A stretch of DNA of 64,000 nucleotides, from positions 62,001-126,000 of the forward strand of contig NZ_JXDB01000009.1 in the NCBI RefSeq assembly GCF_001281265.1, given 5' to 3'. The number at the start of each line of letters is the position of its first letter. Positions within the stretch are counted from its first letter, which is position 1. This DNA comes from Apilactobacillus kunkeei DSM 12361 = ATCC 700308. GTDB lineage: Bacteria; Bacillota; Bacilli; Lactobacillales; Lactobacillaceae. The position numbers and the translations under genes were made by a program. This document shows, one piece after another, positions 61,840 through 64,000 of the stretch. The notes under the pieces were generated by a model. That model saw only the letters and a list, made by a program, of their open reading frames with translations, was not told the origin of the DNA and did no database searches.

Positions 61840-63111
61840 TTGGATACAGAACAACAAACTGCCGTTATCATCGGTTTAAACCTAGACAATGAGCAATTCG
61901 AGTACTCAATGACTGAATTAGCTGCCCTAGCTGAAGCTAATAACCTAGAAGTTGTGGCTCGTCTGGTTCAAAAGCTAGATCATCCCGATAAAGCCACATA
62001 CTTCGGTAAAGGTAAAGTTGAAGAACTAAAGATGACCGTATTGGATAAAGACGCTGACATGGTCATTGTTAACGATGAACTATCACCTAGCCAAATCAGA
62101 AACTTAGAAAAACAAACTGAAACAAAAATCATCGACCGTACAGGTCTAATTTTAGAAATCTTTGCCAACCGTGCCAGAACTCACGAAGCCAAACTTCAAG
62201 TTCAATTGGCCAAGTTGCAATACCAACTACCTCGTTTGCACACCAGTGCTAGTCAACGACTAGATCAACAAACTGGTAGCGGGGGTGGTGGGTTCACCAA
62301 CCGTGGTTCCGGTGAATCTCAACTGGAATTAAACCGTCGTGTGATTGAAAAGGATATTTCTCACATTAAACAAGAACTAAAGGATATCCAAAAATCAGAC
62401 TTAACCCAAAGAAAGCAACGTGATGGAAAAAACATCCCTACTGTTGCCTTAGTTGGATACACCAATGCCGGTAAGTCAACCATCATGAACCAACTGGTTA
62501 ACCGCTACGGTGAAAACCAAGAAAAACAAGTCATGGTTAAAAACATGTTGTTTGCTACCTTGGATACCAGCGTTAGAAAACTAATTTTCGATGACAACAA
62601 AACTATGTTGTTATCTGACACCGTTGGCTTCGTAAGTAAGTTACCTCACCAATTGGTGAAGGCCTTCCGTTCTACTTTGGCCGAAGCTGCTAATGCGGAT
62701 CTATTGGTCCAAGTAGTCGACGAAGCCGATGAAAATAAGGAACTAATGATGAAGACCACCGAACAAACATTGAAGGAAATCGGGGTCGAAAATATCCCAA
62801 TGATTACCGTCTTCAATAAGGCCGACATCCTAGACGAACCTCGTCCCCAACGTGCTGGTGATAACCTAATCATGGCAGCACTTGAAGAAGACTCCATTGA
62901 TGAATTGATTCAAATCATTAGAGAAAATAGTTACAAGGATTACGTCACCGAAGAATTTTTAATTCCGTTTGATAAAGGTGACATCGTCAACTACCTAAAT
63001 ACTAAGGCCAACGTGCTTTCAACCGAATATGTTGCCGAAGGAACCAAGATTAAAGCAGAACTAACGGCAGTTGACAGTGAACGATTTAAACAATATCTTA
63101 TTAATAACTAA
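61840..63111 (+). CDS. hflX: GTPase HflX
   Basis: Ribosome-associated GTPase that rescues stalled ribosomes under stress and can split subunits. Starting at TTG (61840) after AAGGAGG gives 423 residues. The N-terminal HflX domain (to about 190) includes the coiled-coil arm and GGGGFTNRGSGES, followed by the GTPase with GYTNAGKST (about 205), DTVGF and NKAD. AzlC follows after a 25-base gap on the same strand. Confidence 0.95.
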   Translation: MDTEQQTAVIIGLNLDNEQFEYSMTELAALAEANNLEVVARLVQKLDHPDKATYFGKGKVEELKMTVLDKDADMVIVNDELSPSQIRNLEKQTETKIIDRTGLILEIFANRARTHEAKLQVQLAKLQYQLPRLHTSASQRLDQQTGSGGGGFTNRGSGESQLELNRRVIEKDISHIKQELKDIQKSDLTQRKQRDGKNIPTVALVGYTNAGKSTIMNQLVNRYGENQEKQVMVKNMLFATLDTSVRKLIFDDNKTMLLSDTVGFVSKLPHQLVKAFRSTLAEAANADLLVQVVDEADENKELMMKTTEQTLKEIGVENIPMITVFNKADILDEPRPQRAGDNLIMAALEEDSIDELIQIIRENSYKDYVTEEFLIPFDKGDIVNYLNTKANVLSTEYVAEGTKIKAELTAVDSERFKQYLINN

Positions 63112-63136
63112 TTTTTTTCTAAGGATGTGATGAGAT

Positions 63137-63844
63137 ATCGACAATCAACTAACTGCAAGGTCAGCAATTAAAGAAAGTATCCCCACCATGTTTGGATACA
63201 TTGGAATTGGATTAGCCTTTGGAATTATCGGGAAATCCCTTGGCTTTAGCCCCTGGCTAGTCGCCATCTTATCATTGACTGTTTATGCTGGATCAGCACA
63301 ATTTATTTTGGTATCAATGATGGCTTTGCATAATCCAATCTTTTCGATTGTGCTAGCAATTTTTCTGGTAAACTCCAGAATGATTCTAATGAGTATCACC
63401 ACCGCTCCATATTTCAAAAATGATTCGATGTTAAAGAATATTTTAATTGGTTCTTTTTTAACCGATGAGAGTTTTGCGTTGGGTATGAATAAAGTTAACT
63501 ACACAGATAATCAGTTAACGTTTACCTGGTTCAATACCGCTAACATCGTCTCTTATCTAACCTGGGCTGGTGCCTCGTTTGTCGGCGCAGTTGCCGGTAG
63601 TTTTATCCATAATCCATACGCAATTGGATTAGACTTTGCCCTTGTTGCAATGTTTATCGGATTATTATATCTACAAGTGATTGCCAAAAACGGTATGCCA
63701 TTGAAATTAAAGCTACTGATGATTTTAATCACCTTAATCATGGTATTTATTGGATTAATCTTTATTCCAAGAAACCTATTAATCCTACTAGTAACACTAA
63801 TTACTTGTCTGATTGGAGTGATTATCAAACATGTCTTCTTTTAA
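63137..63844 (+). CDS. azlC: Branched-chain amino acid exporter subunit AzlC (apparent AUC start)
   Basis: AzlC forms, with AzlD, an exporter of branched-chain amino acids or their analogues. In-frame reading upstream of the first ATG (63188) gives DNQLTARSAIKESIPT, an N-terminus I recall from AzlC relatives, preceded by ATC (63137). An AAGGATGTGA ribosome binding site (nine of ten bases as AAGGAGGTGA) ends six bases before that ATC, whereas ATG 63188 has no such site. I therefore place the start at ATC, which is rare; an ATG-to-ATC change or sequencing error is possible. About 235 residues with about six membrane segments. Overlaps azlD by 14 bases. Confidence 0.85.
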   Translation: MDNQLTARSAIKESIPTMFGYIGIGLAFGIIGKSLGFSPWLVAILSLTVYAGSAQFILVSMMALHNPIFSIVLAIFLVNSRMILMSITTAPYFKNDSMLKNILIGSFLTDESFALGMNKVNYTDNQLTFTWFNTANIVSYLTWAGASFVGAVAGSFIHNPYAIGLDFALVAMFIGLLYLQVIAKNGMPLKLKLLMILITLIMVFIGLIFIPRNLLILLVTLITCLIGVIIKHVFF

Positions 63845-64000
63845 TTTCACGCTATTAACCATCATTGGATGTACCTTAGTAACATGGCTTTCACGTGTAT
63901 TGCCATTCATCCTGTTAAAGAAATTTAAACTATCAAAAACTGTTGAAGAGTTTTTAAGTTTTGTCCCCATCGTGATCATGGCAACGTTATGGTTCTCACA
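63831..64000 (+). CDS. azlD: Branched-chain amino acid exporter subunit AzlD (start only)
   Basis: The window ends inside this gene. The visible 56 residues start MSSFNFTLLTIIGCTLVTWL and continue into a hydrophobic segment, matching the small membrane partner of AzlC. The 14-base overlap with azlC implies a coupled pair. Identity rests on the pairing and membrane pattern. Confidence 0.8.
   Translation, partial: MSSFNFTLLTIIGCTLVTWLSRVLPFILLKKFKLSKTVEEFLSFVPIVIMATLWFS

Follow-up and report, generated by a model that had tools for sequence, protein, structure and literature searches.

The window analysed here, a 64,000-nucleotide stretch that forms part of contig 9 of the Apilactobacillus kunkeei DSM 12361 assembly (G000), carries at its end an AzlC-family permease gene, azlC, preceded by hflX and followed by azlD. 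The features of the locus are:

61840..63111, + strand: hflX (GTPase HflX), the upstream neighbour; matches TIGR03156 at 417.7 bits, over the cut-off
63120..63131, + strand: extended Shine-Dalgarno (SD) sequence TAAGGATGTGAT of azlC; predicted duplex of -11.9 kcal/mol with the anti-SD, which the genome's own 16S rRNA has
63130..63171, + strand: 13-codon out-of-frame ORF (ATG at 63130, TAA at 63169-63171); not conserved
63131..63133, + strand: in-frame TGA that bars an azlC start further upstream; the same in all six ATC genomes
63137..63139, + strand: inferred AUC start codon of azlC; AUY in nine of nine orthologs, aligned with a standard start in 73 of the 80 named homologs
63137..63844, + strand: azlC (AzlC-family permease), by translation 235 codons from the ATC and then TAA
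63188..63190, + strand: first in-frame ATG of azlC (codon 18), a rival start; weak SD, inside a predicted helix of residues 7-34
63831..64000, + strand, running off the window: azlD; ATG start, overlaps the end of azlC; Pfam AzlD PF05437, E=1.6e-13

The azlC locus and its upstream region

The azlC frame (63134-63844) opens behind the TGA with GAT at 63134, ATC at 63137 and then GAC, AAT, CAA and CTA, and holds no ATG, GTG or TTG before codon 18, the ATC being codon 1. Its product matches Pfam AzlC (PF03591; E=1.9e-38, 132.5 bits against a gathering score of 32.1) from residue 16 onward and scores 71.1 bits against the NCBIfam equivalog TIGR00346 (azaleucine resistance protein AzlC), whose cut-off is 332.35; it is a member of the AzlC family and not the named equivalog and, being so far below that cut-off, has its substrate assigned from the family only. 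Solved structures offered no sequence relative at E up to 1, and the plasmid collection no match.

The gene order recurs among the orthologs: hflX adjoins azlC in all nine orthologous loci (by DNA match, four of them read), azlD has its ATG at the same place in all nine, and every hflX-linked azlC found in the genus has AUY at the start position. In two other genus genomes (G007 and G010; loci L179 and L180) the region 3' of hflX holds a hairpin-and-T stretch, identified by eye, together with other genes and no azlCD, so the genus has seen a gain or loss of azlCD at this site.

Read-through from hflX into azlC is rejected for the ATC genomes, where hflX lies in another frame and a TGA intervenes, and so is coupling to hflX termination at a fixed distance, the gap being 25 bases in the window and about 91 in G015. 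A promoter candidate, TTGACA-17-TATCTT at 63071-63099 (10 of 12 positions), was likewise discarded: its region has three sites of this kind, fewer than the 4.8 that shuffled sequences have on average. Rfam gave nothing at gathering score over 62700-64000, with no riboswitch or T-box recognised there. The predicted RNA fold of 63090-63180 contains an 11-pair stem of 63093-63103 with 63128-63138, taking in the last SD bases and some of the start codon, that could link the end of hflX to the azlC SD and start; at a z of -0.10 it is no more stable than shuffles and, by eye, it is not kept in G008, G006 or G015, and it was rejected as a control element.

Start codon and Shine-Dalgarno sequence across Apilactobacillus

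The initial annotation placed the azlC start at the ATC on the strength of an almost perfect ribosome binding site spaced for it. Both features of that site are borne out: 63121-63131, part of TAAGGATGTGAT, agrees at 10 of 11 positions with AAGGAGGTGAT, the complement of the anti-SD, and nine bases separate GGATG (63123-63127) from the ATC at 63137-63139. The 16S gene of the same genome (G000, contig 4) carries the anti-SD itself, GGATCACCTCCTTTCT, at its end; this sequence was found in seven of the 16 genus genomes, the others perhaps lacking it through rRNA missing from drafts; a longer anti-SD pattern beginning with TT gave no match. An extended SD at proper spacing precedes the AUY codon in all nine orthologs, with one conserved mismatch and duplex energies of -9.3 to -11.9 kcal/mol, as against only -1.8 to -5.1 kcal/mol at Met18 in the same nine genomes. 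By folding, the site is predicted to be partly paired in all nine, with 25-55% of the SD and 4-37% of the start codon unpaired, the start codon of G015 being predicted to be nearly wholly paired.

As a control, a mechanical selection of 73 non-overlapping conserved ORFs in the window, of which a few small ones are doubtful, was scanned over the first 60 codons, with ATG given a bonus of 1.5 in choosing the preferred standard start. Among these, azlC is unique in having a near-cognate codon whose SD is at least 3 kcal/mol better than that of the preferred standard start: its ATC scores -11.9 and its ATG -5.1, a gap of 6.8, and the next-largest gap is 2.2. In absolute strength the azlC SD is not outstanding, since 39 of the 65 window genes compared exceed it in SD strength (median -12.7; the 65 omit from the 73 azlC itself, the first ORF and six more that looked doubtful or small, or lay overlapping or antisense).

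The conserved SD mismatch also creates an ATG within the SD in all nine genomes (63125-63130 in the window), directly abutting a TGA (AUG-UGA) in seven and opening a short out-of-frame ORF in G008 and G006; this ATG is possibly only a by-product of a weakened SD. The 13-codon out-of-frame ORF noted in the initial annotation does exist in the window, but its conservation fails, with no such ATG in G008, G006 or G015.

The initial annotation had also proposed comparing azlC starts in sister strains. Among 16 genus genomes, nine hold an azlC ortholog at 73-100% identity; A. ozensis and A. xinyiensis (G013 and G014) have a homolog at 58-62% only, and the remaining five (G001, G007, G009, G010 and G011) only a paralog at 29-31%. 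At aligned codon 1 the orthologs read ATC in six, namely that of the window and five more (G000, G002, G004, G012, G005 and G003), and ATT in three (G008, G006 and G015), each with its SD; a standard start occurs there in none of the nine, and the comparison thus favours the AUC start. The frame runs without stop or gap in all nine. No usable standard start lies near the AUY codon, the one blemish being an in-frame GTG three codons 5' of the ATT in G008 and G006, which falls inside the SD and is in our judgement probably too close to serve as a start.

Outside this group the same codon position carries ordinary starts. Of 30 loci read in the comparison that includes the nine orthologs, the other 21 have ATG (17) or GTG (4). 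The best-matching named genomes were those of Apilactobacillus kunkeei (two), A. waqarii, A. zhangqiuensis, A. nanyangensis, an Apilactobacillus MAG and A. apinorum. Among the best 80 of 232 named loci, aligned codon 1 is ATG in 63, GTG in six, TTG in four, ATC in five and ATT in two; all seven AUY loci are from Apilactobacillus, in genomes already counted among the nine above (the genus and named sets overlap and their counts are not additive). A further 30 loci were taken from 238 matching genomes, of which 21 were new and read for their start codon; all 21, many from the same species as the named ones, have a standard start. In the AzlC-like paralog encoded elsewhere, TTG is the first standard codon in the four genomes read. 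In a quickly built AzlC tree (82 rows), the nine AUY rows group together as a clade (SH-aLRT 100) and the codon state changes only once, which implies one evolutionary event; the A. ozensis and A. xinyiensis genes fall elsewhere on the tree and have a different upstream gene.

Selection on codons 2-17 and competing readings

Between groups, codons 2-17 show a pS of 0.45-0.93 and a pN/pS of 0.18-0.36, with Fisher tests giving p values of 0.010, 0.008, 0.0002 and 0.003 for four pairs that are not independent, as they share sequences and branches; codons 18-235 show a pN/pS of 0.04-0.21. The N-terminal codons hence behave as coding sequence and are held, though less tightly than the remainder of the gene. 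L5, P16 and T17 are invariant across 49 aligned AzlC sequences, and a structure model built from those 49 (mean pLDDT 76.5, pTM 0.67; pLDDT 87 over residues 1-10 and 82 over 11-20) places residues 7-34 in a single helix that runs across Met18 at a pLDDT of about 80.

On this basis, translation of azlC very likely starts at AUC 63137, or at AUU in the three sister genomes, and the start is very probably both real and old. The alternative that fares best accepts this position and opposes the regulatory part of our reading alone: the AUY codon would be an early change fixed by drift, harmless and merely tolerated. The single origin on the tree fits such a history, as does the dispensability of azlC suggested by the five genus genomes that have only the paralog, and we regard it as a real possibility, if short of probable. 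ATG is one base change away, yet none of the nine genomes has acquired it despite the synonymous divergence given above, an argument that is itself weakened by their relatedness.

A start at the ATG of codon 18 (63188), with the upstream codons as a relic, is far harder to sustain. Met occupies codon 18 in all nine AUY genomes, whereas most homologs have Val and Met is rare there among those with standard starts, and the Pfam match begins close by, at residue 16; for the former reason the internal start keeps some small weight, and a second, shorter product from Met18 is conceivable. As the sole start it is improbable, given the purifying selection on codons 2-17, the weak SD at this ATG, and the fact that initiation there would cut the predicted helix and lose all three invariant residues. 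Still less credit is due to translation from the out-of-frame ATG at 63130 followed by a +1 shift: all six ATC genomes have this ATG, from which a +1 shift would lead into the azlC frame, but the ATG overlaps the SD, is absent from the three ATT genomes, and comes with no known shift signal recognisable by eye. Finally, AUC start codons are very rare, which might speak for a sequencing error or a decayed gene, but nine separate assemblies agree on AUY, where an error would not recur, and an open, ungapped frame with codons 18-235 so tightly held makes this reading scarcely credible; a recent loss of ATG, the other alternative first raised along with sequence error, is unlikely in view of the old, clade-wide AUY state and the selection on codons 2-17.

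Known near-cognate starts and a possible link to IF3

Near-cognate starts have been described in several bacteria and can be compared with that of azlC. In Staphylococcus aureus, ccpN (AUA), cvfC1 (AUU), citZ (AUA) and infC (AUA) have such starts, AUA and AUU starts with an extended SD yielding about 10% as much as AUG does in poor medium and the ccpN start up to 30% in rich medium (PMC13009471). These cases resemble azlC in the use of a near-cognate codon in a Firmicute, in the extended SD reported for infC, cvfC1 and ccpN, and in the conservation of the cvfC1 and ccpN starts in relatives; they were found by Ribo-Ret, with reporters for cvfC1, ccpN and citZ (PMC13009471), whereas the azlC start is identified by comparison alone, in a gene that encodes a transporter subunit, and is AUC or AUU. 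In Streptomyces, the GTC start of sigR is repressed by IF3 (PMC5472188), and the resemblance lies in a genus-conserved non-standard start in a gene followed by that of a functional partner (rsrA there, azlD here); the difference is in the codon and in the experimental demonstration of both IF3 repression and stoichiometry for sigR (PMC5472188). The infC gene itself starts at ATT in Escherichia coli and ATC in Streptomyces (PMC5472188) and shares the AUY start with azlC, but infC is autoregulated, whereas azlC would be an IF3 target only. The AUU start of Borrelia burgdorferi pncA, missed by databases that list a shorter protein, is a further likeness, with the difference that the longer PncA has genetic and crystallographic confirmation (PMC13398362). 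Expression of Bacillus subtilis rny-lacZ persists, though much reduced, in an AUC mutant (PMC10303841), and adding IF3 to a reconstituted system lowers the proportion of product that the CAU initiator begins at AUU (PMC10158994). Experimentally characterised non-standard starts are very few, and annotation that assumes ATG, GTG or TTG misses them (PMC5472188).

Set beside these systems, azlC is a further case of the already known near-cognate starts, one whose possible regulatory role we infer from sequence and from the behaviour of other genes. The recurrence of AUY in all nine genomes points to a site that has been long kept and is weak and possibly regulated. The ordinary initiator fMet-tRNA would read AUC or AUU, guided by the extended SD: it would pair with the first two bases while the SD holds the complex, to yield a predicted product of 235 residues with fMet first. 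Since the CAU anticodon would leave the third base of AUY unpaired, many such complexes should be rejected by IF3, so that synthesis of AzlC would reach only a small fraction of that from AUG and its output might vary inversely with IF3 activity. The weak start would thereby hold AzlC below HflX and AzlD in amount, and its retention for such a purpose is about as likely as not.

Within the literature library searched, azlC together with start codons gave three papers, none of them on the azlC start as judged by title and abstract; searches for Apilactobacillus with azlC found no papers, and phrase searches for AUC, AUU and ATC starts gave no azlC case among the matches listed. An annotation restricted to ATG, GTG and TTG would probably overlook this start, and the comparison of aligned start codons and SDs can reveal such starts without ribosome profiling. 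With its single origin and nine genomes, the AUY state also provides a natural test of whether weak starts are kept as control devices.

The infC gene of Apilactobacillus bears on the same question. In all 16 genus genomes (L147-L162; the window genome's own copy, L159, is at 53828-54031 of contig 7) it lacks ATG, GTG and TTG at the SD-spaced site, the start region reading GGAGGTGA ATT ACC (GCC in two) ATA GCA AAC GAT ATG ATG. The ATA is the likely start on this evidence, with the ATT and the downstream pair of ATGs retained as alternatives. As a pointer to IF3 control of azlC, this site is a lead only. A small IF3-controlled gene set that includes azlC and infC, in which AUY is kept by selection against AUG, is a tentative and rather doubtful extension; if true, it would couple AzlC-family transport to the state of the initiation machinery. 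The ATA is spaced nine bases from GGAGG, as is the azlC start from its SD in the window genome, and resembles the infC AUA reported for S. aureus.
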